Positions 29,499 to 49,223 of a DNA stretch of 64,000 bases are shown here, piece after piece. Under the pieces are notes generated by a model. That model was not told the origin of the DNA. It ran no database searches and saw only the letters and a list, made by a program, of their open reading frames with translations. Source of the stretch: Olsenella profusa DSM 13989 (GTDB taxonomy: Bacteria; Actinomycetota; Coriobacteriia; Coriobacteriales; Atopobiaceae). The stretch spans positions 1,178,001 through 1,242,000 of the forward strand of contig NZ_JAUSQK010000001.1 of NCBI RefSeq assembly GCF_030811115.1. The letters are read 5' to 3'. Numbering within the stretch: the stretch's first letter is position 1; each line of letters begins with the position of its first letter. A program made the translations under genes and the position numbers.

Positions 29499-30365
29499 CT
29501 ACAGGATCTTCCGCCCTGCCCAGTCGAGGCAGGAGTTCCAGGCCGCCATTCCTTCGGGACGCGCCGGGTCGCGATCGAAGTCGTGCCCTCCCTCGTCGAC
29601 GAAGAAGGTCTCGGCCGTGGGGGCCTGCGCCGCCAGCGCCGTGGCATTCTGGAAGGGCACATCCTCGTCGTCCCTGCTTGCGGCGATGAAGAGGGGAGGG
29701 AGATCCTGCTGGGCCTCGGCATCGAGGGAGAAGGCATCGAGGTTGGATGGGGTGACCGCAAGGAGCGATCCCCAGTTGCCGGTCTGACGCGCGTAGACGT
29801 AGAGGCCAAGGCGACGTTCGAGCGGAGCGGAGCTGAGCGGTTCCGTGCCCGCGAGCCTTCGGGCGGTTCGTGGTGCTACGAGGGCATAGGTGCGGCGGTA
29901 GTGGAGGGAGGGCTGGAAGAGGGCGGCGCGCATCTTTGCCAGGTTGCAGTAGCCGTAGAAGTCGATCACGCCTGCGGGGGCCTCGCCCGACTGGCCCAAC
30001 TGGTGAGCGAGCATGAGGGCAAGGTAGGCGCCGGCAGAGCGGCCGCAGAGAAAGGTTCGCCCTGCCGGGAGGAGGTCGCTTGAGCTGCGAAAGACCTCCT
30101 CGACGGCATTGAGTATCGCGCCGATCTGAGCCTGGGGAGCCAGGGGATAGTCTGCCGTCACCAGGGTGAGGCCCCGCCCCAGGATGATATCGACATAGCG
30201 GCGGGGCAGGTCGTCTCGGCCGCCATAGAGAAGTCCCCCTCCGTGGAGGTAGAAGAGGGCAGCATGTCGGTCGCAGCCCGGCTGCGGCCGCTCGATCGTG
30301 ATGCCGACGGGGAGTGTGGCGCCTTTCGGAAGGGTGACGTGGGTCGTCCTCGCGCTTGCACTCAT
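29499..30365 (-). CDS. Alpha/beta hydrolase (carboxylesterase/lipase type)
   Basis: A 288-residue alpha/beta hydrolase of the HSL/esterase type. It shows the oxyanion motif YLHGGGLLYGG (near residue 40), nucleophile elbow CGRSAGAYLA, an acid in ASRDDEDVPF and the catalytic His in DEGGHDFDRD. The ATG overlaps the stop of the PucR-type regulator gene (CAATGAG), so the two are co-translated. It would hydrolyse short esters or act on a ureide-related carbamoyl/ester compound; the substrate is not evident. Confidence 0.8.
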   Translation of the reverse strand: MSASARTTHVTLPKGATLPVGITIERPQPGCDRHAALFYLHGGGLLYGGRDDLPRRYVDIILGRGLTLVTADYPLAPQAQIGAILNAVEEVFRSSSDLLPAGRTFLCGRSAGAYLALMLAHQLGQSGEAPAGVIDFYGYCNLAKMRAALFQPSLHYRRTYALVAPRTARRLAGTEPLSSAPLERRLGLYVYARQTGNWGSLLAVTPSNLDAFSLDAEAQQDLPPLFIAASRDDEDVPFQNATALAAQAPTAETFFVDEGGHDFDRDPARPEGMAAWNSCLDWAGRKIL

Positions 30366-32005
30366 TGCGGGATGTCCTCTCCCATAAGGGTCAGGAGTCG
30401 TCGGGCAATCACGAGCTGTGCCAGGGTATCCGAGTCATGGATGTCGATCCCATAGGATTCGCGGGCGCGGTTCACACGATAGCTCACGGTCTTGTGGTGC
30501 ACATAGAGCTGGTCTGCCGTCTGCTGGAAGTTGAGGTTGTTGTCCGTCAGGGCCATGAGGGTGCCGAAGACGAGTGGGTTCTCGCTGCGGAGCCTCCGCA
30601 GATGGGGGTCCATGAACTGCACGAGCTTGTCATGGTCCTCGATGTTCAGTAAGATGCGGTAGATGCCCAGATCCTCGTAGCACAGGAGATGGTTGTGCCC
30701 GCGGTCGGGATCGAAGAGGCGATAGACGCCCATGACCTGGTCGTTGGCACGCTGGATGTCGTAGCGGCCGACGATGCCGGAAAGCGTTGCCAGGTAGGTG
30801 AAGTCGGGCAGGTCGGGGTTCGCGCACATGTCCTTGAGGATGCCCCTGACGGTCGACATCTTGAGTCCCTGCGCCTCGGAGGTGAGATTGCGCAGGAAGA
30901 TGATGCGGTTGTTGCTCTCGTAGTAGACGACGCTGTAGTGCTGATGCTTGAGGCGCTGCCGGAGGGCATGGGGGAGCTCCGTCATCCGGGCGCCCTCCTT
31001 CGCATCGAGAATCTGGAAGCGCACAAGCAGCACCTGGTAGTAGGGCTTGCTCTCGATCGAGAGTTCCTTCAGGGACTCGTCGGTGGCGGCCTTCGTCGTG
31101 CAGCGACCCAGGAGCAGGTCATGCACGAGCGTGTTGTTGCGGCGGAAGAGCCGCTCCTCGATGGCGGACTCCTTGAGGAGCTCCATCTGCAGGAGGCTCG
31201 TGAAGCTCTCGATGGTCATCACGTCGAGCTGCGAGAGGGTCCTGCCACCCGTATGGATCAGGAAATAGGCAGGCATGCCCTCGGTCGTCGGAATCATGAC
31301 GGCCAGAGCCTCCCGTCCCTGTTCCGTTGCCGTGTCAAAGGAGGCATGGTAGTAATGAAAGGTCTGGTAGTGGCCGCGGTGGAGTTCCTTGAGGCTCAGG
31401 TTCTCGAGGCTGACCGCCCGGGGCGAGGTCGAGATGCAGGTGCCTGAGGAACGTCCGTAGTAGGAGCAGTCCATGCCGATCGACTTCTTGGCCTGGTCCA
31501 GGATCACATGGATGCTCGGCTGCTCAAGCGCCAGCTTCATGGTCCGCTGGTGGATGCTGAAGAAGCGGTTCAGGAGCATCAGGTTGGTGTCGAGGGCAGA
31601 GCCCATCACATCGGCAAGGATGCTCTCGTATTTCGTCTCCGTGGCAAGCTGGATGAGGGGGATGTCTGCCCGGTCGCAGCAGGCCACCACGTCCCCAGGT
31701 GCCTCGGCGTAGAGGCGTCCTGGCTTGAAGGCGATGCCTGCGGGCTCCACGGCCACAAGCCTCTGGAGAAAGCGCGTGCGCTCCTCGAGGGAGAGTGGCT
31801 CCAGGGCGAAGAAGCTGGTCACGAGAAAGATGCCCCTGCGGCCCCAGCGCTCGATGTCGGCCGCCTCCATTACCATCGCATTGCTGATGGTGCGGCCAAG
31901 CCCCCCTTCACCGGCAATGACCTCAGCACCTTCGAAGCTCGCCAGGTCGAGCACAGAGCGAGCGGTGAGCGTCTCTTCCTTGATCTGTATGCGGGGCCTT
32001 GTCAT
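30362..32005 (-). CDS. PucR family transcriptional regulator
   Basis: A 547-residue regulator with the PucR plan: an N-terminal purine-catabolism PucR domain (ARSVLDLASFEGAEVIAGEG, DIERWGRRGIFLVTSFF), a central GGDEF-like region, and a C-terminal PucR-type HTH (LTDNNLNFQQTADQLYVHHK followed by TVSYRVNRA). The ATG at 32005 follows AAGGAG six bases upstream; a TTG 21 bases earlier overlaps that site. PucR proteins regulate purine or ureide breakdown, which matches the allantoin genes that start 2 kb away on the other strand. Divergent from the 2-hydroxyacid dehydrogenase gene. Confidence 0.85.
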   Translation of the reverse strand: MTRPRIQIKEETLTARSVLDLASFEGAEVIAGEGGLGRTISNAMVMEAADIERWGRRGIFLVTSFFALEPLSLEERTRFLQRLVAVEPAGIAFKPGRLYAEAPGDVVACCDRADIPLIQLATETKYESILADVMGSALDTNLMLLNRFFSIHQRTMKLALEQPSIHVILDQAKKSIGMDCSYYGRSSGTCISTSPRAVSLENLSLKELHRGHYQTFHYYHASFDTATEQGREALAVMIPTTEGMPAYFLIHTGGRTLSQLDVMTIESFTSLLQMELLKESAIEERLFRRNNTLVHDLLLGRCTTKAATDESLKELSIESKPYYQVLLVRFQILDAKEGARMTELPHALRQRLKHQHYSVVYYESNNRIIFLRNLTSEAQGLKMSTVRGILKDMCANPDLPDFTYLATLSGIVGRYDIQRANDQVMGVYRLFDPDRGHNHLLCYEDLGIYRILLNIEDHDKLVQFMDPHLRRLRSENPLVFGTLMALTDNNLNFQQTADQLYVHHKTVSYRVNRARESYGIDIHDSDTLAQLVIARRLLTLMGEDIPQ

Positions 32006-32053
32006 CGTTATCTCCTTGGAAGACAAAGATATCGCATGCAGAGCCGGAGATGT

Positions 32054-32182: not shown

Positions 32183-33142
32183 ATGCGTGTCGCACTGCTG
32201 GAGCCGCTTGGCGTATCTGAGGAGACGGTCTCAAAGCTCAGTGCCCCCATCCGTGGGCGGGGCCATGAGTTTGTGTATTTCGACCAGAGGACGACCGATG
32301 TGGGGGAACTCGCGAAGAGGAGCGCAGGCGCCGATGTCGTGATGATTGCGAACAACCCCTACCCCGCTTCCGTCGTAGGGGGTGCCGACGCCCTCAAGAT
32401 GATTGCCGTGGCCTTCACGGGCATCGACCACGTCGGTCTCGACGCCTGCAGGCAGCGGGGTGTGGTGGTTTGCAACTGCGCGGGCTACTCCGATGTGAGC
32501 GTGGCCGAGTTGACCTTGGGTCTCACGATCGACGTCCTGCGTCTCGTGGCTGAGGGAGACGCGGCCGTACGCTCTGGGAAGACCTCGTCGGGACTCACGG
32601 GTCGCGAGATTGCCGGCAAGGTCGTCGGCATCGTCGGCACCGGCCATATCGGCACCCAGGCGGGCCGACTCTTTGCCGCCTTCGGTGCCCATGTCCTAGG
32701 CTATGCGCGCCACGAGAATCCGGAAGCGACGAGGGCGGGCATCGAGTATGTGAGCGATCTTGACGAGCTGCTCGCGGCAAGTGACATCGTGAGCCTGCAT
32801 CTGCCGAGCAATGCCTCGACGCACAGGATGTTTACGACAGGGAAGTTCGCCCTGATGCCGGAAGGCTCGGTCTTCATAAACTGTGCCCGTGGCGCCATCG
32901 TGGACAACGACGCCCTGGCCGCTGCCCTGAACAGGGGGCATCTGGCTGGTGCAGGCGTGGACGTCTTCGATATGGAGCCGCCCCTGCCGGAGGACTATGC
33001 GCTCCTCCATGCCAAGCATGCGGTGCTGACCCCGCATGTGGCCTTCCTCACCGAGGAGGCGATGGAGCGCCGCGCTCGGATCGAGTTCGACAACGTGATC
33101 GCCTGGCTCGATGGAAAGCCGGAGAATGTCTGCGAACTCTAG
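32183..33142 (+). CDS. D-2-hydroxyacid dehydrogenase
   Basis: A 319-residue NAD(P)-dependent dehydrogenase of the D-isomer 2-hydroxyacid family. It has the nucleotide-binding loop GIVGTGHIGTQAGR, catalytic Arg in NCARGAIVD, Glu in DVFDMEPPLP and His in LTPHVAF. The ATG at 32183 follows GGGAGGG. In this setting it could reduce glyoxylate or another 2-oxo acid, recycling NADH produced by AllD, but the substrate cannot be read from the sequence. It is transcribed divergently from the PucR-type regulator. Confidence 0.85.
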   Translation: MRVALLEPLGVSEETVSKLSAPIRGRGHEFVYFDQRTTDVGELAKRSAGADVVMIANNPYPASVVGGADALKMIAVAFTGIDHVGLDACRQRGVVVCNCAGYSDVSVAELTLGLTIDVLRLVAEGDAAVRSGKTSSGLTGREIAGKVVGIVGTGHIGTQAGRLFAAFGAHVLGYARHENPEATRAGIEYVSDLDELLAASDIVSLHLPSNASTHRMFTTGKFALMPEGSVFINCARGAIVDNDALAAALNRGHLAGAGVDVFDMEPPLPEDYALLHAKHAVLTPHVAFLTEEAMERRARIEFDNVIAWLDGKPENVCEL

Positions 33143-34204: not shown

Positions 34205-35434
34205 ATGAGCGTTTCCGTACAGGATGTCTCCAAGACTATCGATTGGCTCGCACAGTATGGCTACCAGGGCGAGGATCAGGGTATGGTGCGTCTGCTTTAC
34301 ACGCCCGAGTGGCGTGCCGCGCAGAGTGCGCTCAAGGAGAGGTTCGAGCAGGCGGGCATGGCCGTAAGGTTCGATGCGGTGGGCAATCTCAAGGGCACCT
34401 TCGCCGGGTCCGATTCGGACGCCGGCATCGTTGCTTCGGGCTCCCATGTGGATACGGTCGTGAACGGGGGCAAGCTCGATGGTGCCCTCGGTATCGAGGC
34501 CGCCCTCCTTGCGACGATGGACCTCGTCGCGACCCATGGCCAGCCGAAGAAGGGGCTTGCCGTCATCAGCATGGCGGAAGAGGAGGGGAGCCGCTTTCCC
34601 TATGTCTTCTGGGGTAGTAAGAACCTCTTCGACCTCGAGGACAATGCCCAGATGACAGACATTATGGATAAGGATGGTGTGAGGTTCGTCGATGCGATGC
34701 ATGAGTGTGGATTCGACTTCAACCGTGGACATGACCCCTTGATGGACGGAGTTACGAACTGGCTCGAGCTCCATATCGAACAGGGCAACACCCTCGAGAT
34801 GGAAGGAAGGCAGGTAGGCATCGTCCACGGCATCGTGGGCCAACGCCGCTATGACATCCATCTCAAAGGCGAGGCGAACCATGCCGGCACGACGATGATG
34901 CGCTATCGCCATGATGTGGTGCAGGCCTATGCGAAGGTCGTCTCCCAGTCTATCGAGAAGGCAAGGGCCGCAGGGGATCCACTCGTCCTCACCTTCGGCA
35001 AGGTCGAGGTCAGGCCCAATGTCGTGAATGTCGTGCCGGGCGAGATGACCTTCACGATGGACTGTCGCCATACGGACAAGGACTTCCTGGTGAGCTTCTC
35101 GGATGGTATCGTCTCCGACATGCGCGCCATCTGTGCCGACATGGGAATCGAGATCGAGGTCGACAACTGGATGGACGAAGACCCGGTGCCTATGGATGAT
35201 GGGATGATCTCTGTCATCCAGAGAGTCTGTCAGGAGCGGGGTCTCAATGCCCTCGACATGCATTCCGGCGCCGGTCATGATTCTCAGATTATCGCGAGGT
35301 ACATTCCGTCCGGAATGATCTTCGTTCCCTCCATCAGGGGTGTCAGCCACAATCCGGCAGAAGCCACGAAGATGGAGGACATCAAGGAGGGCATCGATGC
35401 CCTCGAGGCCACTCTCTACGCGCTTGCGTACTGA
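34205..35434 (+). CDS. allC: Allantoate amidohydrolase
   Basis: A 409-residue M20/M28-family metallo-hydrolase with SGSHVDTVVNGGKLDGALGI (His and Asp ligands), ISMAEEEGSRFP (catalytic and bridging Glu), ELHIEQGNTLE and the dimer-domain motif GEANHAGTTMM. The closing HSGAGHDSQ and GVSHNPAEAT supply further ligands and substrate contacts. It converts allantoate to ureidoglycine with release of CO2 and ammonia. This is the first gene of the allantoin operon; the permease follows within 36 bp. Confidence 0.9.
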   Translation: MSVSVQDVSKTIDWLAQYGYQGEDQGMVRLLYTPEWRAAQSALKERFEQAGMAVRFDAVGNLKGTFAGSDSDAGIVASGSHVDTVVNGGKLDGALGIEAALLATMDLVATHGQPKKGLAVISMAEEEGSRFPYVFWGSKNLFDLEDNAQMTDIMDKDGVRFVDAMHECGFDFNRGHDPLMDGVTNWLELHIEQGNTLEMEGRQVGIVHGIVGQRRYDIHLKGEANHAGTTMMRYRHDVVQAYAKVVSQSIEKARAAGDPLVLTFGKVEVRPNVVNVVPGEMTFTMDCRHTDKDFLVSFSDGIVSDMRAICADMGIEIEVDNWMDEDPVPMDDGMISVIQRVCQERGLNALDMHSGAGHDSQIIARYIPSGMIFVPSIRGVSHNPAEATKMEDIKEGIDALEATLYALAY

Positions 35435-35469
35435 TGGCCTTTGGCTGGCGGCAAGGAGGCGAGGCTGCT

Positions 35470-36945
35470 ATGACATTCGAGGATCAGATCATCACGGCAG
35501 CTGTGGTGCAGAAGCTCGAGGGGCGGGGCTACAACGACGATATCCTGCCCAAGCAGACATCGGAGCGCACGATGGGTGCCAGGAACTTCTTCACGCTGTG
35601 GATGGGGTCGGTGCATAACGTTCCAAACTACAATGCGGTGGCCGGCTTCCTCTTCCCCGTGGCGGGTGGCCTCGTGCTCGGCCTGCCTCCGATGGGCGTG
35701 ATGCTCGCAGTCGCCTTGGCCGGCGCCATAGTCACGGCATTCATGGTGTCCAATGGCGTGGCAGGGTCGAAGTATGGCATCCCCTTCGCGATTTGTCTGC
35801 GTTCGACCTATGGCAACCTGGGTGCCAAGCTGCCCGGGTTCCTGCGCGGCTGCGTTGCCGCCATCGGCTGGTTTGCCGTACAGACCTATCTGGGCTCCAA
35901 GGCGCTCTACATCATCCTCGTGAGGCTCTTCCCCGCCTTTGCCGATATTGCACCCGGTGTCGATATTCTGGGCATCAGTGTACCAGGGCTCGTTGCGTTC
36001 ATGGTGTTCTGGCTTGCGAACGTCGCAATTGGCATCGGTGGGGGTAGCGTTCTCAATAAGTTCACCGCCATCTTGAGTCCCCTCATCTATGTACTCGTGA
36101 TTGGCATGACCGTCTGGGCTGTCGGAGCCGCCGGTGGTATGGAAGGCATCCTTTCCTATCAGGTCGTGACCACAGGTGCCGTGAACCCCGTCTTTGCCTA
36201 CTTCGTTATATTCAGCTCGGTATTGGCTGTCTGGGCAGCACCTGGAGCGAGTGTCTCGGACTTCACTCGTGATGCGACATCGACCAGGGCGCAGGCGAAG
36301 GGACAGGCGTTTGGCCTTGTCGTAGGCTATGTGGTCTTTGCCATCTGCTCTGTCATCATCATGGTTGGCGGTTCCATCCATGATGGCGTCCAGTATCTCG
36401 ACATTCTTGAGCTCATCGGCAACTGGAGCTCGAGCCCGGCTGTCATCTTTGCAATGCTGTGCTTTCTGCTCTCCACCATCTCGACCAACGCAACGGGCAA
36501 CGTCATTCCGGCTGCCTTGCAGCTCTCGGCCCTCCTTCCTGACAGGATTGACTACCGCAGGGGCATCCTCATCGCCAGTCTCGTGAGCGTCGCGATTCTG
36601 CCTTGGAAGCTCATGGAGGGCGGCGGCATTGCGACCTTCCTCAATACGATTGGTGCCGTGCTCGGCCCTGTGGCGGGCTGTATGATGGCAAACTTCTATC
36701 TTGTGAGAAGGCAGCGGCTCGATCTCAACCAACTCTATATGAATCCAGCTGCCGACAACACAGGCAACCCATACTTCGGCCTCAAGAAATCGGCCTATGC
36801 CGCGACGCTCATGGCTCTCATCCTCTGCCTTCTCGGTCATTTCATACCGGCGCTCTCGTCTCTCTCGAACATTTCCTGGTTCGTCGGCTTCCTCTCGGCA
36901 GCCATCCTCTATGTCCTGCTTGAGCGGCTGGAAAGAAAGGTTTGA
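35470..36945 (+). CDS. NCS1 family purine/allantoin permease
   Basis: A 491-residue membrane protein with about twelve helices of the NCS1 (PucI/CodB) family: an N-terminal NFFTLWMGSVHNVPNYNAVA, VSNGVAGSKYGIPFAICLRS, FRGCVAAIGWF-like helix and FLLSTISTNATGNVIP. The ATG at 35470 has AAGGAGG upstream; an earlier ATG at 35434 overlaps the allC stop. Placed between allC and allB, it most probably imports allantoin with Na+ or H+. Hydantoin, uracil or cytosine remain possible on sequence alone. Confidence 0.85.
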   Translation: MTFEDQIITAAVVQKLEGRGYNDDILPKQTSERTMGARNFFTLWMGSVHNVPNYNAVAGFLFPVAGGLVLGLPPMGVMLAVALAGAIVTAFMVSNGVAGSKYGIPFAICLRSTYGNLGAKLPGFLRGCVAAIGWFAVQTYLGSKALYIILVRLFPAFADIAPGVDILGISVPGLVAFMVFWLANVAIGIGGGSVLNKFTAILSPLIYVLVIGMTVWAVGAAGGMEGILSYQVVTTGAVNPVFAYFVIFSSVLAVWAAPGASVSDFTRDATSTRAQAKGQAFGLVVGYVVFAICSVIIMVGGSIHDGVQYLDILELIGNWSSSPAVIFAMLCFLLSTISTNATGNVIPAALQLSALLPDRIDYRRGILIASLVSVAILPWKLMEGGGIATFLNTIGAVLGPVAGCMMANFYLVRRQRLDLNQLYMNPAADNTGNPYFGLKKSAYAATLMALILCLLGHFIPALSSLSNISWFVGFLSAAILYVLLERLERKV

Positions 36946-37077: not shown

Positions 37078-38442
37078 ATGACTAATGATTGTGTTATCAG
37101 GCATGGTACGGTCATCCTCGAGGGCGGTGAGGTCATCTGCGACGTCGCCGTGAAGGATGGGAAGATCTCCCAGATTGGCCAAGACCTTGCGGGTGCCGAG
37201 ACCATCGACGCCAGTGGGCTGGTCGTCTCGCCGGGCATGGTCGACGGGCACGCCCATATCACGAGCATGGGTGGTGGCTACCGCGATGAGTGGGAGGGCT
37301 ATGAGACGGGCACGGCGGCCTGTGCCAAGGGAGGCATCACCACAATCGTCGAGATGCCGCTAAACCAGATCCCCTCCACGACCGACGGGTCATCGCTTCA
37401 GGCCAAGTATGACTCCGGCAAGAATCAACTCCGCGTGGACGACGCTTCGCTCGGAGGCTTGGTTCCCTTCAACCTCGGCGGTGGCATCCAAGAGCTTGAT
37501 GAGGGCGGCGTCTGCGGATACAAGTGCTTCCTTGCCACCTGTGGCGACCGTAGCATCGAGGGTGACTTCCAGAATGTCGACGACTACTCCCTCTACGAGG
37601 GCATGCGGCAGATTGCGAAGACTGGCAAGGTGCTGAGCATACACTGCGAGAATGCTGCGGTCACCGATACCCTGGGGGAGAGGGCAGTCGCAGCAGGCGC
37701 CCACACGCTCAAGGAGTTCGTGGAATCCCGTCCAGTCCTCACTGAGGTGGAGGCGGTGCGCCGTGCCATCTTCTTTGCCAAGGTGACGGGATGCCGCATC
37801 AACATCTGCCACTGCACCTGCTTCGAGGCGGTCGAGGAGGTTATTCGTGCCCGCGAAGAGGGGGTCGATGTGACCTGCGAAACCTGCCCGCACTATCTCT
37901 ACTTCACGACTGACGAGCTCGATGCGATCGGTGCCACGACCAAATGTACGCCACCGATTCGTGACAAGGCCGAGCAGGAGGGGCTTTGGAGGCACTTGTT
38001 CGATGGTGGACTCTCGATGGTCGTCTCCGACCACTCGCCTTGCACGCCTGACCTTAAGGACAAGGCGAACCCCTTCGATGCCTGGGGTGGTGTCTCGAGC
38101 ATCCAGACCTGCATGGACGTCATGTTCGACGAGGGCGTCCAGAAGCGTGGCATGAGCCTCGAACGCTTTGCTCAAGTCATGGCGGCGGACGCGGCCGACC
38201 GCTTCGGGCTCACGCAAAAGGGGCGCATCACGGTGGGCAAGGATGCCGACCTTTGCCTCATCAAGCCGAACTCTCCCCATACCCTGAAGGCCGAGGACCT
38301 GGAGTATCGCAACAAGATCAGCCCTTGGATCGGTCGTACGATCGGCTGCCAGGTAGTTCGCACCATTCTACGCGGCACGACCACCTATAGCCTCGAGGGG
38401 GGCGTGACCTCCTCCCACGACGGAACATTCATCCTCGTGTAG
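37078..38442 (+). CDS. allB: Allantoinase
   Basis: A 454-residue cyclic amidohydrolase with the metal ligands in GMVDGHAHITS (HxH), the carbamylated Lys position GYKCFLATC, LSIHCENAAV, INICHCTCFEA and Asp in MVVSDHSPC. The CETCPHYL motif is typical of allantoinases and dihydropyrimidinases. It opens the hydantoin ring of allantoin to allantoate, the AllC substrate. The ATG at 37078 follows GAAAGGA. A strong GC hairpin lies between it and the MFS gene. Confidence 0.9.
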   Translation: MTNDCVIRHGTVILEGGEVICDVAVKDGKISQIGQDLAGAETIDASGLVVSPGMVDGHAHITSMGGGYRDEWEGYETGTAACAKGGITTIVEMPLNQIPSTTDGSSLQAKYDSGKNQLRVDDASLGGLVPFNLGGGIQELDEGGVCGYKCFLATCGDRSIEGDFQNVDDYSLYEGMRQIAKTGKVLSIHCENAAVTDTLGERAVAAGAHTLKEFVESRPVLTEVEAVRRAIFFAKVTGCRINICHCTCFEAVEEVIRAREEGVDVTCETCPHYLYFTTDELDAIGATTKCTPPIRDKAEQEGLWRHLFDGGLSMVVSDHSPCTPDLKDKANPFDAWGGVSSIQTCMDVMFDEGVQKRGMSLERFAQVMAADAADRFGLTQKGRITVGKDADLCLIKPNSPHTLKAEDLEYRNKISPWIGRTIGCQVVRTILRGTTTYSLEGGVTSSHDGTFILV

Positions 38443-38525: not shown

Positions 38526-39776
38526 ATGTCATCATCCGCAAAGCCTGCTGCCTCTAGCTGGAAGCGCCTTGTTATCGTCCTGGCGCTGGGTTGGGTCGTC
38601 ATCTGGATATCCCGGATGATGTTCACGCCAATCTACCCGGTTCTGAGCGACTTCTTCGGCGGTGTCAGCAACACGCAGCTCGGTGCCATTTCGAGCCTCT
38701 ATTTCTTGGGCTACGTGGTGATGCAGATACCCTCGGGCATCCTGGTCGACCATTTTGGCATGAGACAGGTCATCGTGCCCGGCTTCATCGTCTTCATGGC
38801 GGGCGTTGCCGTCATGGCGACAGCGACCACGCTCCCTGTGCTCTATGTAGGGTCCATCATCTCGGGTGCAGGTTGTGGCACCTTCTACGGCATTGCCTAT
38901 ACGATCACGAACGTCTTCGTCCCGAAGGACAAGAAGAGCCTTGCCACCGCAATCGTGAACAGTGGCACCGCTATCGGCTCAGGCGTAGGACTTGTCTCGG
39001 CGAGCCTCCTTGTGGGGACGCACATCGTCTCCTGGCAGGCGCTAGTCGCCTTCACGGGGTTCCTTGCCCTCATCATGGCCCTCGTCTTTGCACGGGCTCT
39101 GCCGGGGCGCATCTGCGAGATCGATGCGGAAGAGGAGGAACTCGCCGAAGGGGAGGAGACAGGACGCGTCGGGGGCCTGAGGAGACTCTTCCGTCCCCAG
39201 ATGGTCGCCGCCTACATCGTCTACTTCTCGGCGCTCTATGCGTACTATCTGATCAGCACCTGGCTCCCGAACTTCCTCGAGACCGAGCGAGGCTTTGCCA
39301 ACTCCTTCACGGGCATCGTGAGCTCGCTCGTCTTCTTTGCGAGCATACCGGGAGCACTCGTCCTCAGCCGGCTTGCCGATAGGATACCACAGAGTAAGGT
39401 CGCGCTCATCGTCCTTCTCCAGGCCGCTGCCGCCATCACCCTCTTCCTGATGGTGCAGCCCTTCCCGAGGCCCCTGATAGTCGCCTCCATCGTGCTCTAT
39501 GGGCTTCTGGGTAAGCTCACGGTCGAGCCTATCATCATCAGCTGGCTCGGGGACTTCGCCCCGAAGGGTAGCGTCACGACGACCTTTGGCGTCTTCAATT
39601 TCTCCGGCATGAGCGCTTCGGTCTTTGCGCCGGCAGTGACCGGATCTCTGACCGACTCCTTCGGCTCGAGCGTCTATGGCTACTACCTCGCTATCGTTAT
39701 CGTGGTCGTCTTCACGGCTTCCTTCCTGGCGATCGGCCGTCACGGTACGGGAGCGGTCTCTACGATCCGCCGATGA
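38526..39776 (+). CDS. MFS transporter
   Basis: A 416-residue major facilitator with twelve predicted helices, the A-like motif LVDHFGMRQVIV after helix 2 (a D-x-F-G-x-R form), and a charged central loop (EIDAEEEELAEGEETGR). The ATG at 38526 follows AAGGAGAG. It lies inside the allantoin operon between allB and allE, so it could export a product such as oxamate or import a second ureide or nucleobase. The family does not fix the substrate. Confidence 0.8.
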   Translation: MSSSAKPAASSWKRLVIVLALGWVVIWISRMMFTPIYPVLSDFFGGVSNTQLGAISSLYFLGYVVMQIPSGILVDHFGMRQVIVPGFIVFMAGVAVMATATTLPVLYVGSIISGAGCGTFYGIAYTITNVFVPKDKKSLATAIVNSGTAIGSGVGLVSASLLVGTHIVSWQALVAFTGFLALIMALVFARALPGRICEIDAEEEELAEGEETGRVGGLRRLFRPQMVAAYIVYFSALYAYYLISTWLPNFLETERGFANSFTGIVSSLVFFASIPGALVLSRLADRIPQSKVALIVLLQAAAAITLFLMVQPFPRPLIVASIVLYGLLGKLTVEPIIISWLGDFAPKGSVTTTFGVFNFSGMSASVFAPAVTGSLTDSFGSSVYGYYLAIVIVVVFTASFLAIGRHGTGAVSTIRR

Positions 39777-40034: not shown

Positions 40035-40826
40035 ATGAGCTACATCAATAACGTTACTGGCTACCGCAAGGATATTCTCGAGACCCGTTCCGAGGTGCAC
40101 AAGGGCGCCTGGGCCCTCATCGAGCCTGACGGCATCGTCAAGAACGTGATCCCGGGCTTTGTGGACTGTGACACCACCATCCTCGGGTCCCCCCGTCTCG
40201 GGGCGTCGTTCGTCGACTACGTCGTGACCGTCCACGCCGGCGGTGGCTGTGAGGCCGGCTTTGGCACCGAGGGCGTCGAGGTGTTCCTCTATGTCTTCAA
40301 CGGACATATGGAGATTGGCAACGAAGAGAGGCGAGAGACCGTCACCGATGGCGGTTACATCTTCTGCCCCGCCGGCACCAGGCTCACCTTCAAGAACGTT
40401 GGCGACGAGGACGCCTTCTGCTTTCTCTACAAGCGCGTCTACGAGCCGCTTGAGGGCCATGAGGCCCACACGGTCCTCGCGAACATCAACGATGTGGACT
40501 GGGCCGATTACGAGGGCATGACGGACGTCCGCTGCAAGGACTTCCTGCCCTCCGCAAATGACCTCGGCTTCGACATGAACATGCACATCCTCTCCTTCAA
40601 GCCGGGTGCCTGCCATGGCTACATCGAGACTCACTACCAGGAGCACGGCGCCTACGTCTACTCCGGCGAGGGCATGTACGTCCTAGGCGACAAGTGGGTG
40701 CCCATCAAGAAGGGCGACTACCTCTACATGGATTCCTATGTGCCCCAGGCCTGCTACGCCATGGGCCGTGGAGAGGAGTTCGCCTACATCTACTCCAAGG
40801 ACTGCAACCGCGACCCTGAGCTCTGA
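40035..40826 (+). CDS. allE: (S)-ureidoglycine aminohydrolase
   Basis: A 263-residue bicupin protein. The N-terminal cupin has GTEGVEVFLYVFNGHMEI and YIFCPAGTRL; the C-terminal cupin has GACHGYIETHYQEHGAYVY, with Glu, His and Gln at the Mn2+ and substrate positions, then GDYLYMDSYVPQACYA. These match AllE (YlbA), which turns (S)-ureidoglycine into (S)-ureidoglycolate plus ammonia. The ATG follows GAGGAGA. It begins a tight run with the FdrA-YlbE fusion, allH, carbamate kinase and allD. Confidence 0.9.
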   Translation: MSYINNVTGYRKDILETRSEVHKGAWALIEPDGIVKNVIPGFVDCDTTILGSPRLGASFVDYVVTVHAGGGCEAGFGTEGVEVFLYVFNGHMEIGNEERRETVTDGGYIFCPAGTRLTFKNVGDEDAFCFLYKRVYEPLEGHEAHTVLANINDVDWADYEGMTDVRCKDFLPSANDLGFDMNMHILSFKPGACHGYIETHYQEHGAYVYSGEGMYVLGDKWVPIKKGDYLYMDSYVPQACYAMGRGEEFAYIYSKDCNRDPEL

Positions 40827-40854: not shown

Positions 40855-43854
40855 ATGCTGAGTACCGTCATCAAGAGGAACAGCTACCAGGACTCCATCA
40901 ACCTGATGCTGCTCACCAATGCGCTCAATGCGCTGCCCGGTGTCACGAAGAGTCAGATCATGATGGGCACCGATGCCAACAAGGACATCCTCGAGGGTGC
41001 GGGCCTCCTGACCGACGAGGCGGCGGCAGCCTCACCCTCCGACATGGTCATCGTCGTCGACTCCGAGCGCGAGGAGACGGTGGGTGAGGTCCTGGCCGAG
41101 ACCGAGCGCTTCCTCTCTGACCTTTCCGTGAGGGGGGATGCCTCCCAGCTCGCCGAGGTGGAGAGCTGGGACGAGGCCCTTGGGGCCATGCCCGACGCAA
41201 ACCTCGCCCTCTTCTCCACGCCGGGCGAGTACACCGCGCCCGAGATCGGGCATGCCCTCGACCTCGGTCTCAACGTCTTCTCGTTCACGGACAACATCAG
41301 CCTCGCCGACGAGGCGAGCCTGAAGCGGAAGGCACATGAGAAGGGCCTCATGCTCATGGGTCCCGATTGCGGCACCGGCATCATCAGCTCGACTCCCATC
41401 GCCTTCACGAACGTGGTCAGGCCCGGCCGCATCGGCATCGTGGGCGCCTCCGGCACGGGCATCCAGGAGGTCACCTGCATCATCGACCGCCTGGGCGAAG
41501 GCGTGACCCATGCCATCGGCACGGGCGGGCGCGACCTTTCCGGCGCCGTGGGCGCCATCACCGTCATGGATGGCATCTCTGCCCTCGAGCATGATAGGGA
41601 GGTCAAGGTCATCTGCGTCATCTCCAAGCCACCCGCGCGGGAGGTCCGTGACAGGGTGGTTGACCTCCTTGAGCGCTGCACCAAGCCAGTCGTGGCCATA
41701 TTTCTGGGTGAGAGGCCGGAGCACCATCTCGGCAGGGTCTATCTGGCCCACACCCTCGAGGAGACAGCCAGGATCGCGGTCGACCTCGCAGAGGGAAGGC
41801 CGGTCAAGAGGAACTACCTCGAGCCGCTCGGCTTTACGTGCAAGGACCCACTCCCCGAGGGCAGGACCGTGGTCGGCCTCTATTCGGGCGGCACCCTGGC
41901 GAATGAGGCAGGCATGCTCGTCTCCGAGGCGCTGGACCTCGGTGGCGTCGTGAAGGAGGACGGCTACATCCTCCATGCGAGTGGCTACGACGTGATCGAC
42001 CTCGGCGACGACGTCTATACCCAGGGTCGTCCGCACCCCATGATCGACCCCGATGTCCGCATCGACCACATCCGGAAGTACGCCCGCAGTCCGCGTGCCG
42101 GCGTCATCCTCTTCGACGTGATGCTTGGCTATGGCTGCCATCCTGACATGGCGGGGGCCCTGGCTCCCGTGATTCGCGAAGAGCTCTCCGTCGCCCGCAA
42201 GGAAGGCCGCGAACTTCACTTCGTGGGCTCGGTCACCGGTACCGAGGCAGATCCGCAGGACTACCAGAAATCCTTTGCGGAACTCCGTGCCGTGGGTGTC
42301 CATATGGAGACCTCCAACGCCCGTGCCGTCCGCTATGCCCTGGAGCTCAAGGGCGTCCACCTCATCGAGGCGGACCGCACTTCCGTCCCCTATGAGCCGA
42401 GCTGCAAGGATCCAGTTCCCGAGCCCTCCGAGTCCGTACGCGAGCTTCTCGATGCCAAGCCTCGCATCATCAATGTGGGTGTCGAGTCCTTCAATGACTC
42501 CCTGCGTGCCTGCGGTGCGAGGTCCGTCCAGTACAGCTGGAAGCCTATGGCTGGCGGCGACAGGCACCTGATCCATCTCCTTCAGGGGCTCAGCGAACAC
42601 GAGGAGGAGATCGACGAGGCAAACGACGTCGTGATTGGCCGCTTGCGTGACTCGCAGCCCTTCCTCGTGGATGTGGTGCCTGCCAAGGGCGAGATTCCCG
42701 AGCTTGCGGGCAGGGTCATCCTTCATGCGGGTCCCCCGATCGAGTACACCCACATGTCCGACCCCATGCAGGGTTCCTGCGTTGGCGCCGTCCTCTTCGA
42801 GGGCTGGGCAGACAGCGAGGAAGATGCCCGAAGGCTCCTCGAATCCGGGGAGGTTGCCTTCAAGCCCTGCCACTCCGCGCACGCCGTCGGTCCCATGGGT
42901 GGCATCACGACGGGTGGCATGGCGGTGCTCAAGGTCGTGAACAAGGTCGACGGCACCGTGGGCTTCTGCACCATGAACGAGGGAATCGGCAAGGTCCTGC
43001 GCTTTGGTGCCTACGACCAGGAGGTCATCGACCGTCTGCACTGGATGGCGGACGTCCTTGCCCCCGTGCTCTCGGCGGCGATCTGCTCGGTTCCAGGCGG
43101 CCTCAACATCAATCCTATGATCGCCAAGGCCATCACGATGGGAGACGAGTTTCACCAGCGCAACATCGCCGCGTCCCTTGTCTTCCTCAAGACTGTCGCA
43201 CCGCTCATCACCGTGCTTGATTGGGACCAGGGAGAGAAGCAGGACGTCATCCAGTTCCTTGCCGACACCGACCAGTTCTTCCTGAACATCATGATGGCGG
43301 CGGGCAAGTCGATGGTGGACTACGCCCGCAAGTACGAGCATGGCTGCGTCGTCACGACGATGGCGAGAAACGGCGAGAGCTTTGGCATCAGGATTGCCGG
43401 CATGGGGGACGAGTGGTTCTGTGCGCCCGTCAACACGCCCCAGGGCCTCTACTTCACCGGCTACTCTGCCGAAGATGCGAATCCCGACATCGGCGACTCC
43501 GCCATCACTGAGACCGTCGGTGTGGGTGCGATGGCGATGATCGCCGCCCCGGGCGTCACCCGCTTCGTCGGTGCCGGTGGCTTCGAGGACGCCATCCGCT
43601 ATTCCAAGGAGGGCGAGAGGATCTGCATCGCCCACAATCCCAATTGGACGATTCCTACCTGGGACTTCAAGGGCACGAACCTCGGCATCGACATCCGCAA
43701 GGTCGTGGCGACCGGCATCACGCCGACCATCAATACCGGCATTGCGAACAAGAGGGCCGGCCTTGGCCAGATCGGTGCCGGTACGGTCCTTGCCCCCATG
43801 GGCTGCTTCACCAAGGCGCTCGAGGCCTATGCGGCAAAGCATGGCATCGAGTAG
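40855..43854 (+). CDS. FdrA (AllF)-YlbE/DUF1116 (AllG) fusion, oxamate carbamoyltransferase subunits
   Basis: A 999-residue protein made of two units that are separate genes in E. coli. Residues 1 to about 515 are FdrA-like: succinyl-CoA-synthetase-type domains with LMGPDCGTGIISSTPIAFTN, GIVGASGTGIQEVTCII, AIGTGGRDLSGAVGAI and the second half GYGCHPDMAGALAPVI. After a linker (PVPEPSESVRELLDAK) residues about 533-999 are DUF1116/YlbE: VGVESFNDSLRACGA, HAVGPMGGITTGGMAVLK, SVPGGLNINPMIAKAITMGD and a Gly-rich ending. AllF, AllG and AllH have been assigned to oxamate carbamoyltransferase, which phosphorolyses oxalurate to oxamate and carbamoyl phosphate. There is no stop between the parts and frame is continuous, so the fusion is real in this sequence. 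ATG at 40855. Confidence 0.85.
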   Translation: MLSTVIKRNSYQDSINLMLLTNALNALPGVTKSQIMMGTDANKDILEGAGLLTDEAAAASPSDMVIVVDSEREETVGEVLAETERFLSDLSVRGDASQLAEVESWDEALGAMPDANLALFSTPGEYTAPEIGHALDLGLNVFSFTDNISLADEASLKRKAHEKGLMLMGPDCGTGIISSTPIAFTNVVRPGRIGIVGASGTGIQEVTCIIDRLGEGVTHAIGTGGRDLSGAVGAITVMDGISALEHDREVKVICVISKPPAREVRDRVVDLLERCTKPVVAIFLGERPEHHLGRVYLAHTLEETARIAVDLAEGRPVKRNYLEPLGFTCKDPLPEGRTVVGLYSGGTLANEAGMLVSEALDLGGVVKEDGYILHASGYDVIDLGDDVYTQGRPHPMIDPDVRIDHIRKYARSPRAGVILFDVMLGYGCHPDMAGALAPVIREELSVARKEGRELHFVGSVTGTEADPQDYQKSFAELRAVGVHMETSNARAVRYALELKGVHLIEADRTSVPYEPSCKDPVPEPSESVRELLDAKPRIINVGVESFNDSLRACGARSVQYSWKPMAGGDRHLIHLLQGLSEHEEEIDEANDVVIGRLRDSQPFLVDVVPAKGEIPELAGRVILHAGPPIEYTHMSDPMQGSCVGAVLFEGWADSEEDARRLLESGEVAFKPCHSAHAVGPMGGITTGGMAVLKVVNKVDGTVGFCTMNEGIGKVLRFGAYDQEVIDRLHWMADVLAPVLSAAICSVPGGLNINPMIAKAITMGDEFHQRNIAASLVFLKTVAPLITVLDWDQGEKQDVIQFLADTDQFFLNIMMAAGKSMVDYARKYEHGCVVTTMARNGESFGIRIAGMGDEWFCAPVNTPQGLYFTGYSAEDANPDIGDSAITETVGVGAMAMIAAPGVTRFVGAGGFEDAIRYSKEGERICIAHNPNWTIPTWDFKGTNLGIDIRKVVATGITPTINTGIANKRAGLGQIGAGTVLAPMGCFTKALEAYAAKHGIE

Positions 43855-43867
43855 GCAGGGGACAGCC

Positions 43868-44815
43868 ATGGGGACACAGGCGCGAATCTCCTCCTCCCTT
43901 GTCCCCCTAGGGGGGGATTCGCTTGCCGGCGTGGTCGTGCAGGCCTTTGCCCATGGAATGGACGTCCAGCCCGATCAGGGTCGGCTCTTCTACGTCGGCG
44001 GGCATGACAGGCCCCTCTCCTGCATTGGCCTCCAGCTCCCCCAAGGACAGACCGGCCTGCTTCTTGACCGGGCCCGTATCGGTGATGAGGTGCGCATAAC
44101 CTCGCGGGGACTCTTCCTGACACGTGGCAGCCGTCCGCTCCTGCGCCTTGTCTGGACGGAGCTGGAGACGGTCCGCCTCTCCCTCACGTCCCAACTCTCC
44201 CCGGAGGGGCGCAGGCGCGTGGCTTCGGCCGTCGCGCACGCTGATCCCCCACTTTCCCCAGGGCTCGCCATCGACACAAGCCTGCTTGCTGCCCTGCGGG
44301 GTCTGGCAGTGGGGGAGGCCGCCAGGGAGGATGCCATCTTCTGGCTTCTTGGCCGGGGGCTGGGCCTCACCCCCTCGGGAGATGACATCCTCTCCGGTTT
44401 TGGCCTGGGCCTTCGTGCCCGGGGGGACGAAGGGGACCTTGCCGCCTTTGCAGGTGCGCTCCAGCGCATGCTCCTCATCCGGCACACCACGCCCGTAAGC
44501 GAGGCCTACCTGGCGGCGATGCTCGAAGGTACCTGCAACGAGGGATTTCTCGAGCTTCTTGAGGCGGCACAGGAAGGGAGGCCGCTCGAGGGTGCCCTTG
44601 CGGGGGCCAGGTCCTACGGCCATACCTCGGGGGACGATATGCTTCTTGGTCTCTATGCCGCATTCGCACGTCGGGCCCCCTCCCCCTCCTTGTGGGGATG
44701 GGGCAACAGCCTCTGGCGTCACACCGTCATCGGCAAGAACGGAGGAGCCCATGCCTACGACGCACCCCGAGCGCATCGTGATCGCCCTCGGCGGCAATGC
44801 CATCCTGACGGATGA
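43868..44815 (+). CDS. allH: DUF2877 protein (AllH/YlbF), third oxamate carbamoyltransferase subunit
   Basis: A 315-residue DUF2877 protein: QGRLFYVGGHDRPLSCIGLQ, LGRGLGLTPSGDDILSGFGL and YGHTSGDDMLLGLYAAF. The two G-x-x-S-G-D-D motifs are the family hallmark. It follows the FdrA-YlbE fusion by 13 bp and overlaps the carbamate kinase gene by 65 bp. E. coli AllH is the third component needed with AllF and AllG for oxalurate cleavage. Its last ~25 residues arise from the overlap with the next gene, so the C-terminus may be longer than the family norm. Confidence 0.85.
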   Translation: MGTQARISSSLVPLGGDSLAGVVVQAFAHGMDVQPDQGRLFYVGGHDRPLSCIGLQLPQGQTGLLLDRARIGDEVRITSRGLFLTRGSRPLLRLVWTELETVRLSLTSQLSPEGRRRVASAVAHADPPLSPGLAIDTSLLAALRGLAVGEAAREDAIFWLLGRGLGLTPSGDDILSGFGLGLRARGDEGDLAAFAGALQRMLLIRHTTPVSEAYLAAMLEGTCNEGFLELLEAAQEGRPLEGALAGARSYGHTSGDDMLLGLYAAFARRAPSPSLWGWGNSLWRHTVIGKNGGAHAYDAPRAHRDRPRRQCHPDG

Positions 44816-45698
44816 CCCCTCGGCAGAGGCGCAGATCAGGGCGCTTCAGAGGACCTGCGCCCACATCGTCCCCCTGGTTCGGGAGGGCAAGGAGATAGTC
44901 ATCACACACGGCAATGGCCCCCAGGTGGGAAACCTGCTCCTGCAGCAGGAGACGGGCTCCTCTGCCAGGAGCCCCGCCATGCCGCTCGACACCTGTGTCG
45001 CAATGACGCAGGGATCGATCGGCTACTGGACCGTGCTGGCACTCAAGACCGAGCTCAAGCGGGCGGGCCTCGACCACAGGGTCGACGTGCTCATGACAAC
45101 GACGTCGGTTGCGGCGGACGATCCGGCCTTCAGGCACCCGACCAAGCCGATAGGTCCCTTCCTCACCGAGGAGGACGCAAAGGCACAGGCGGCGATTGAT
45201 GGCTGCACCTACATAGAGGACGCAGGCCGTGGCTGGCGTAAGGTCGTGCCCTCGCCCCAACCGCTCGACGTGCCCGGCTCCGCCTGCGTCCCGGCGCTTG
45301 TCAAGCGTGGCGACATCGTGGTCTGCGTCGGAGGCGGCGGCATCCCGGTCGTCGAGACCGAAGACGGCTTCCGCGGCGTCGAGGGTGTCATCGACAAGGA
45401 TCTCACGGCAGAGAAGCTCGCTGAGATCGTGGATGCAGACAATCTCGTGATCTGCACGGGCGTGGACAATGTCTGCATCGACTTCAACAGGCCGACCCAG
45501 CGTGCCTTGGGCGAGGTCTCCGTTCCGGAGCTTGAGCGCTACATCGATGAGGGCCAGTTCCCACAGGGGAGCATGCTTCCCAAGGTCGAGGCCTGCATCC
45601 GCTTCGTCGAGTCCGGTGCGGGTCGCGCGGCCACGATCACCTCGCTCGGTCGCCTGCGTGACCTGAGTCAGGGCGCCGGCACCCGTATCGTACGATAG
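44751..45698 (+). CDS. arcC: Carbamate kinase
   Basis: A 315-residue amino-acid-kinase-family protein with IVIALGGNAIL, ITHGNGPQVGNLLLQQE, FLTEEDA and VVCVGGGGIPVVE followed by VIDKDLTAEKLAEIVDADNL. These are the phosphate-binding and active-site motifs of carbamate kinases. The ATG at 44751 follows GGAGGA inside the allH 3' end. It transfers phosphate from carbamoyl phosphate to ADP, so it gains ATP from allantoin breakdown, as AllK (YbcF) does in E. coli. Confidence 0.9.
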   Translation: MPTTHPERIVIALGGNAILTDDPSAEAQIRALQRTCAHIVPLVREGKEIVITHGNGPQVGNLLLQQETGSSARSPAMPLDTCVAMTQGSIGYWTVLALKTELKRAGLDHRVDVLMTTTSVAADDPAFRHPTKPIGPFLTEEDAKAQAAIDGCTYIEDAGRGWRKVVPSPQPLDVPGSACVPALVKRGDIVVCVGGGGIPVVETEDGFRGVEGVIDKDLTAEKLAEIVDADNLVICTGVDNVCIDFNRPTQRALGEVSVPELERYIDEGQFPQGSMLPKVEACIRFVESGAGRAATITSLGRLRDLSQGAGTRIVR

Positions 45699-45725: not shown

Positions 45726-46778
45726 ATGCTCGTTGCACGTGAGGAGCTCAAGCGGCTCATGAAGGGGAAGTTCATGGTGGCAGGCCTCCATGAGGGGCAT
45801 GCTGACGAGATGGCAGAGGTGCTCACCTGGTCGAGCGAACGGGGTCTTCACAGCCACGGAGAGGTGCGTGTCGAGTACTACGCCGAGCGCATCTCCAAGG
45901 GTGGTATCACGATAGACCCAAGATGGGACTGGGAGCAGACGGGTCCCTGCTCGGGCATCCTCGATGCGGACAATGGCTGCGGCTATCCCTTTGCGATCCT
46001 AGGCCTCAAGAAGGCCATGGAGCTCGCACGGGAGCATGGCCTCGGCGTCGTGGGCGTGAAGAACATCTCCCACTCGGGAGCCTTGGGATACTACACCGAG
46101 ATGGCAGCGAAGAGCGACCTCTGCTGTCTCACGATGTGTCAGTCCGACCCGATGGTCATTCCGTATGGTGGCGCGGAACCCTTCTATGGCACGAATCCGA
46201 TCGCCTTCGGCGCTCCGACGGCAGACGAGCGCTTCGTGAACTTCGACATGGCGACGACGGTGCAGGCATGGGGGAAGATCCTCGATGCCAAGAGCGCCGG
46301 TCGCCCCATCCCCGATGACTGGGCCGTCGATGCGGATGGCAAGCCGACGACCGACCCCCACAAGGTCAATGCCCTGCGTGCCATTGCGGGTCCCAAGGGC
46401 TACGGCCTGATGATGGTCGTCGACATCCTCTCCGGCATCCTTCTGGGCATGCCCTCCGGCAAGAACGTCTCCTCGATGTACCACGACCTGTCTGAGGGCA
46501 GGAACCTGGGCCATCTCCACATCGTGATCGACCCGTCCCGCTTCTGCGGCCTGGACGAGTTCAAGCGCCATATGTCCCAGACTCTGGATGAGCTGGCTGC
46601 CGTGAGGCCGGGCCCGGGCTTCGACAAGGTCTACTATCCTGGCGAGCGGGCGCTCATCCGCAAGGCCAAGTGCGATGCAGTGGGTGGCATCGAGGTCGTG
46701 GACGACATCTATGACTACCTCATCTCCGACAAGCTCTACATCCACAGCTGGGACCACAGGAACCGTTTCGCCGAGTAG
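45726..46778 (+). CDS. allD: Ureidoglycolate dehydrogenase
   Basis: A 350-residue member of the malate/L-lactate dehydrogenase type-2 family: GLHSHGEVRVEYYAERI, the active-site region VKNISHSGALGYYTEMA, TNPIAFGAPTADERFVNFDM and GPKGYGLMMVVDILSGIL. The His-Ser-Gly-Ala motif is typical of AllD. It oxidises (S)-ureidoglycolate to oxalurate with NAD(P)+, feeding the carbamoyltransferase encoded upstream. The ATG follows GAAAGGAC. Last gene of the operon. Confidence 0.9.
   Translation: MLVAREELKRLMKGKFMVAGLHEGHADEMAEVLTWSSERGLHSHGEVRVEYYAERISKGGITIDPRWDWEQTGPCSGILDADNGCGYPFAILGLKKAMELAREHGLGVVGVKNISHSGALGYYTEMAAKSDLCCLTMCQSDPMVIPYGGAEPFYGTNPIAFGAPTADERFVNFDMATTVQAWGKILDAKSAGRPIPDDWAVDADGKPTTDPHKVNALRAIAGPKGYGLMMVVDILSGILLGMPSGKNVSSMYHDLSEGRNLGHLHIVIDPSRFCGLDEFKRHMSQTLDELAAVRPGPGFDKVYYPGERALIRKAKCDAVGGIEVVDDIYDYLISDKLYIHSWDHRNRFAE

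Positions 46779-47793: not shown

Positions 47794-49223
<1,430 letters not shown>

Follow-up and report, generated by a model that had tools for sequence, protein, structure and literature searches.

Within a 64,000-nucleotide stretch of the Olsenella profusa DSM 13989 genome (contig NZ_JAUSQK010000001.1, positions 1,178,001 to 1,242,000; hereafter the window), a single open reading frame, allFG (40855-43854, plus strand), carries homologues of Escherichia coli AllF (FdrA) and AllG (YlbE, DUF1116) in one continuous chain. The product is very probably the single-chain core of an oxamate carbamoyltransferase, built on a scaffold like that of succinyl-CoA synthetase without its phosphohistidine loop and acting with a separately encoded AllH (H), an activity that we infer. 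Its AllF core (F) and its AllG part (G) are separated by a conserved module that we call s, and sequence comparison indicates that the "three-gene" enzyme has four conserved parts, three of which the window protein unites. We propose, with a probability of roughly 60%, that oxamate carbamoyltransferase and its paralogues consist of F-s-G plus H, and that s is a true, overlooked and essential subunit: its free form of about 55 residues comes from a micro-gene, this gene has repeatedly joined and left both of its neighbors, and in E. coli it is hidden as the tail of AllF or the head of YahG. The enzyme was first measured in Carnococcus (Streptococcus) allantoicus. Its genes were identified as recently as 2024, and E. 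coli AllF-AllG-AllH has been purified with oxamate carbamoyltransferase activity (PMC11326118).

Translation of the frame yields 999 residues followed by a stop codon, with no internal stop. Pfam places CoA_binding at residues 190-285, Ligase_CoA at 342-495 and AllG (PF06545) at 667-882, the NCBIfam FdrA model matches residues 1-579 above its cut-off, and Protein Data Bank (PDB) entries 3dmy (E. coli FdrA) and 3clq (an AllG homologue) align to residues 85-582 and 584-994, respectively; the continuous 999-codon AllF-AllG frame described in a first-pass annotation of this DNA is thus borne out. In E. coli, AllF (555 aa) matches the window protein as far as residue 582 and AllG (419 aa) from ~583 onward. 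The paralogous YahF (515 aa) ends earlier, at ~500, and YahG (472 aa) already starts at ~525, so that residues 524-582 close AllF in one pair and open YahG in the other. Two joints, at residues ~506-523 and ~583-589, therefore enclose s, which explains the differing lengths of AllF/AllG and YahF/YahG, all in E. coli. Across 75 fused frames, the gap between profile matches measured 22-42 residues from F to s (median 23) and 8-13 residues from s to G (median 9). A structure prediction of the full chain (mean predicted local distance difference test score, pLDDT, 86.4; predicted template modeling score, pTM, 0.77) rendered s as an ordered helix-strand-helix-strand-helix unit.

The same module recurs in four gene arrangements. 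Profiles for F, s and G were built and run against the open frames of fetched loci (numbered with L). F and G were both usable in 169 of these, or in 165 distinct ones after removal of four duplicates (L210=L107, L211=L106, L212=L103, L214=L084). L087 and L098 (frame broken inside the gene) and L097 (contig end) were left out as short, L112-L125, being incomplete or duplicate loci, were passed over, L001-L030 lie outside the classification, L217, L218, L220 and L222 were fetched later, and matches in Bacillota, Chloroflexota and Spirochaetota were fetched only in part. The 169 loci comprised 75 with a fused chain, 52 with s on G, 20 with s on F and 22 with s on neither; the corresponding numbers for the 165 distinct loci were 73, 50 (including E. 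coli YahFG), 20 (including E. coli AllFG) and 22. After a scan for short frames at the "neither" loci, exactly one s was present in 168/169 loci (164/165 distinct), and the profile search found no locus with two copies among the 169. Across the 168 copies, the motif N-x-G-x-x-x-F ... W-x-P was kept at a level of at least 90% in every arrangement, as were, within each, the individual residues N540, G542, F546, W562 and P564 (window protein numbering). The A-G-G that follows W-x-P reached 76-100% where s is fused, on F or free.

At the "neither" loci, the short-frame scan recovered a separate s in 22 of 23 cases, two of which are one place (E-values 1.4e-26 to 6.6e-13), corresponding to a separate micro-gene in 21 of 22 distinct places; the list of these type-C (free-s) loci was compiled by eye from the profile results. 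The remaining locus, L192, gave no s by profile or short-frame scan, and its F match is gapped. Free s frames span 53-64 codons in 20/21 places, with L172 reaching 79 codons from its chosen start, and lie directly 3′ of F with G close behind in 19/21; G lies 1.3 kb beyond s in L141 and 3.3 kb beyond it in L191. Translation of the micro-gene is predicted; in 13/22 free-s rows the chosen start has a Shine-Dalgarno-like stretch ahead of it, a count to be read knowing that such starts were preferred in choosing. Two free s proteins had no Pfam family above cut-off and matched NCBIfam only at FdrA model positions 505-555, and one compared with the PDB matched only 3dmy. A tblastn search of plasmids with the s consensus placed s mostly under DUF1116 genes and gave no clear free s among the 60 of 149 records listed. 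At type-C loci, cloning the F, G and H genes alone would omit a conserved part, which usually lies in the narrow interval separating F from G.

Several loci depart from these layouts. In L168 (2595-5615) the order is reversed, with a G gene carrying s at its head preceding F; L133, L150 and L154 carry tandem G genes after F and s (F-s-G-G′) and may form a mixed G pair; and L055 and L078 encode, 3′ of the fused gene, an additional free-standing AllG (424-433 residues). One unannotated match to the s consensus on a Vibrio plasmid lies among transposases. For L030 / L221 (G034 contig 7) a 24538-residue open frame was reported, of which only an F fragment matched; the fetched stretch is 47% N, and the frame is probably due to masked bases.

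The phylogeny of F plus G, computed without s, indicated that the arrangements have changed repeatedly. Tree 1 held 124 rows (122 different) and tree 2, a more careful tree, 46 rows picked after tree 1, both under LG+G4 with no mixture model. Naming of the arrangements preceded all tree building, while the rows and the group "fused without L107" were chosen after tree 1. Tree 1 requires at least 16 arrangement changes against a shuffled mean of 62.0, and tree 2 requires 12 against 25.6. The window protein groups with the characterized E. coli AllFG, not with YahFG (support 100 in tree 1, 100/99 in tree 2), and 28/30 fused rows of tree 1, which is unrooted, form one clade (100) inside the clade of AllF|AllG pairs, with E. 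coli branching first as drawn. Since two-gene AllF|AllG pairs surround it on the tree, the fusion looks derived in the lineage of the window, where the chain would have arisen by joining an s-carrying AllF to AllG. Approximately unbiased (AU) tests rejected a single fused clade of 11 rows (p 9e-155), a fused clade without L107 (p 0.0022, a grouping named after tree 1 was seen) and one clade each for s on F (p 5e-93), s on G (p 2e-45) and free s (p 8.9e-6). L107, a single metagenome-assembled spirochaete genome on which the independent second fusion rests, is fused in the other branch as sister to an s-on-G row (100/99, tree 2), and its fusion therefore closed the other joint. A putative third fusion, at L127, depends on weakly supported branches; the AU test without L107 (p 0.0022) bears on it.

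Some observations weigh against the four-part, oxamate-forming enzyme that we favor. Modeled alone, s reached a pTM of only 0.49, with predicted scores of 82-89 over its first 40 residues and 56-66 in its weak tail, which suggests that the tail takes on order through its partners. Compared with the 3dmy crystal chain, the modeled F part shows a root-mean-square deviation of ~19 Å over 427 residues, and F domain placement is therefore unsure. In the s-on-G loci the A-G-G stretch is less well kept (60, 33, 84%), and no activity report for any fused chain was found in the literature searched. Allantoin pathway genes are also sparse: a strict hidden Markov model search of flanks of up to ~6 kb found AllD near 24 of 75 fused rows, AllC near 8, AllE near 3 and AllB near 3 (24, 7, 3 and 3 of 73 without duplicates). 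Many fused loci thus lack the upstream allantoin genes in the flanks covered, so that a fused chain does not always belong to a full allantoin operon. In Enterococcus casseliflavus (L062, L126), a split Fs|G pair stands beside allC-D-E-H-K and a fused copy lies ~16 kb away. Because this species keeps both forms, some fused enzymes may have another substrate or another source of oxalurate.

Extended to the whole fused clade, this would make it a transcarbamoylase acting on a related carbamoyl compound, tied to allantoin in the window by its neighbors only, which we consider unlikely. Beyond the sparse allB, allC and allE and the different surroundings of the two E. casseliflavus forms, an E. 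faecalis plasmid is in keeping with it: there, the fused fdrA is accompanied by DUF2877, a major facilitator superfamily (MFS) gene, arcC, a symporter and allD, thus with allD and carbamate kinase, along with two amidohydrolase-family genes, and nothing within 14 kb is annotated as allB, allC or allE. E. gilvus has a split pair within a full allantoin operon. Against a different substrate, the window gene sits between allE and allH-allK-allD, E. coli AllF|AllG belongs to its supported clade, 72 of 75 fused rows have AllH in their flanks (71 of 73 without duplicates), and the 24 neighboring AllD genes encode the enzyme that makes oxalurate. Carbamate kinase occurs in the flanks of 50 of the 75 (49 of 73 without duplicates). 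Because the window's own operon is complete, its allantoin context favors oxalurate as the substrate here.

An improbable alternative holds that s is a passive stretch without a function of its own, its borders having moved because an ancestral single chain had two weak places at which start and stop codons came to lie. Only two borders are in use, both at joints, and the tree, being unrooted, is compatible with such an ancestor. A useless fragment should be lost, however, and s persists in 164/165 distinct loci, as a free small frame in 21 of them, with five motif residues at 90% or more in each arrangement. The still simpler picture, AllF fused to AllG through one flexible linker at the Pro/Glu/Ser stretch that the first-pass annotation placed near residue 520, is very hard to sustain. 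A Pro/Glu/Ser-rich stretch does exist (~513-527), and YahF and YahG break at it, but the E. coli AllF|AllG border lies at ~583, and alignments already contradict a single joint: AllF extends to residue 582, and the intervening residues 524-582 are conserved in all four arrangements and folded in the model. That a sequencing or assembly artefact deleted a stop codon has next to no likelihood, since the open frame is common to many relatives and to a second record of the species, O. profusa F0195 (L031), whose frame is identical (100% identity over the protein).

The fused chain is a scattered but recurrent architecture. The O. profusa genome (one contig, 2,616,809 bases) has a single match to the window protein. 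A scan of genome contigs seeded with short peptides of that protein, a design that over-samples fused relatives, kept the best 80 of 111; of the 79 loci from it, 72 showed one unbroken frame, and these were mostly from Coriobacteriia and Bacillota, some from Chloroflexota, and one each from Thermomicrobiota, Leptotrichiaceae and a spirochaete. Best-segment identity to the window protein was 60-74% in 73/79, 100% in 1 and 35-55% in 5, a similarity far beyond chance. Counts per group, read from match tables with DNA fetched in part, are less biased. In Coriobacteriia, 30/396 genomes matched and 19/30 were fused, including the window genome and one of the same species, so that close relatives do not always have two genes, the outcome that would have spoken against the fusion. 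Fused chains occurred in 2/58 matching Bacillota genomes (398 searched), 1/44 in Chloroflexota (201 searched) and 1/14 in Spirochaetota (198 searched), or 1/57, 0/43 and 0/13 without the center genome of each group, which was picked for having a match and is itself fused. One doubtful Bacillota genome (G790) proved, once its DNA was fetched, to be split with s on G. The fused protein already stands in a public record under the name FdrA, and a literature search on oxamate carbamoyltransferase and these families, mostly outside subscription journals and judged largely from titles and abstract openings, found no account of the fusion or of s; the novelty lies in the module between the halves and its free micro-gene form. 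As a natural single chain, the protein fixes which parts belong together, reveals real module borders and offers a simpler object for structure work.

Comparison with known systems places the window protein closest to E. coli AllFG, with which it shares domains, their order and the operon partners AllH, carbamate kinase, AllD and AllE, at 42% identity to AllF and 56% to AllG. It differs in being one chain instead of two: the E. coli break falls at ~583 and leaves s on AllF, making separateness a feature of E. coli and not of the activity. E. coli YahF/YahG (with YahE and YahI; putative or uncharacterized) likewise contain F, s and G alongside DUF2877 and carbamate-kinase-like genes, but break at ~520, carry s on YahG, have ~40% identity and lie in the other branch of the tree. 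In G, the fold is shared with 3clq, an uncharacterized protein of E. faecalis V583 (Z 55.1, 417 residues, 43% identity), the only G match among the 50 listed in a full-chain fold search, and the 3clq chain starts at the equivalent of ~580, representing G without s. A fold search with s alone returned 3dmy first (E 0.075), with all other rows at chance level.

Like succinyl-CoA synthetase and the ADP-forming acyl-CoA synthetases, F combines CoA_binding with Ligase_CoA and has the alpha-chain fold (2yv2, Z 18.8, 213 residues, 2.5 Å). Unlike SucD, the window protein, AllF and YahF show no GHAGA phosphohistidine loop in alignments, and Pfam (E 0.01) detected no ATP-grasp domain in the window protein, a further difference from those synthetases. 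F keeps the SGT..E motif of SucD and has GGTL..E at the corresponding stretch of SucC. These motifs face phosphate in succinyl-CoA synthetase, in which the histidine of HAGA is the phosphorylated residue. FdrA residue 296, which aligns with window residue 292, falls where the HAGA loop is missing. The FdrA D296Y variant altered oxamate output, and FdrA was without succinyl-CoA synthetase activity (data not shown there; PMC8550087). The window protein also differs from ATCase, OTCase and YgeW in having no OTCase-type domains by Pfam (E 0.01), as E. coli AllFGH lacks classical transcarbamylase domains according to Kim and Kim (PMC11326118). In G, residues E649, E709, H767, R769, K818, R838, D878, D881 and E886 are identical in 124/124 rows and, by this conservation, are candidates for a substrate site.

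We propose a direct phosphorolysis across F and G with AllH, in which oxalurate and phosphate would yield oxamate and carbamoyl phosphate, the latter converted to ATP by carbamate kinase (allK). Because the phosphohistidine loop and the ATP-grasp domain are missing, F would bind phosphate or carbamoyl phosphate directly, with no phosphohistidine relay and no CoA ligation, while G and AllH would supply the oxalurate/oxamate side. Since one copy of s is kept on F, on G, in a single chain or as a micro-gene, it may serve as an obligatory docking part that keeps F and G aligned with each other. In the fused chain the three parts would be fixed at one copy each. Kim and Kim (PMC11326118) saw AllF and AllG at comparable levels on gels, in keeping with this, but their western blot did not show it.

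The window gene lies in a same-strand run of allC, an allW-like permease, allB, an MFS gene, allE, allFG, allH, allK and allD (see table), which corresponds to the oxamate-forming route described for anaerobic breakdown of allantoin in E. coli (PMC11326118). The allantoin setting with AllH and carbamate kinase directly downstream, also part of the first-pass annotation, held up.

Features of the allantoin operon and of the allFG chain (window coordinates).
Feature	Position	Strand	Evidence
allC, allantoate deiminase	34205..35434	+	NF006768 above cut-off; TIGR03176 below its cut-off
Allantoin permease (allW-like)	35434..36945	+	NF008476 above cut-off
allB, allantoinase	37078..38442	+	NF005960 above cut-off
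MFS transporter, putative; alternative start 38487	38526..39776	+	NCBIfam matches below cut-off
allE, (S)-ureidoglycine aminohydrolase	40035..40826	+	TIGR03214 above cut-off
allFG, single-chain F-s-G, 999 aa	40855..43854	+	translation, Pfam, NCBIfam, PDB
F, AllF/FdrA core, residues ~1-505, succinyl-CoA synthetase alpha-like CoA_binding + Ligase_CoA	40855..42369	+	Pfam, 3dmy, fold search, profile slices
F-s joint, residues ~506-523, Pro/Glu/Ser-rich, equals YahF|YahG gene border	42370..42423	+	alignments
s module, residues ~524-582, N-x-G-x-x-x-F ... W-x-P	42424..42600	+	profiles, motif counts, model
s-G joint, residues ~583-589, equals E. coli AllF|AllG gene border	42601..42621	+	alignments
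G, AllG/YlbE/DUF1116, residues ~590-999	42622..43851	+	PF06545, 3clq
allH (DUF2877), 315 aa	43868..44815	+	PF11392; no NCBIfam match at E 1e-10
allK, carbamate kinase, overlapping allH end	44751..45698	+	TIGR00746 above cut-off
allD, ureidoglycolate dehydrogenase	45726..46778	+	TIGR03175 above cut-off

Upstream of the operon, the opposite-strand stretch 29502-32026 includes a PucR-type purine regulator. The other flanking frames, in this stretch and at ~32222-33142 on the plus strand, comprise one that is hydrolase-like by eye and has no NCBIfam match, and a D-2-hydroxyacid dehydrogenase below family cut-offs. Further along the window, at 47794-49223, a family 1 glycosyl hydrolase is divided between two frames that overlap (profile positions 3-274 and 279-452) beside a frame for a phosphotransferase system EIIC component, and the split is likely due to a frameshift near 48630.

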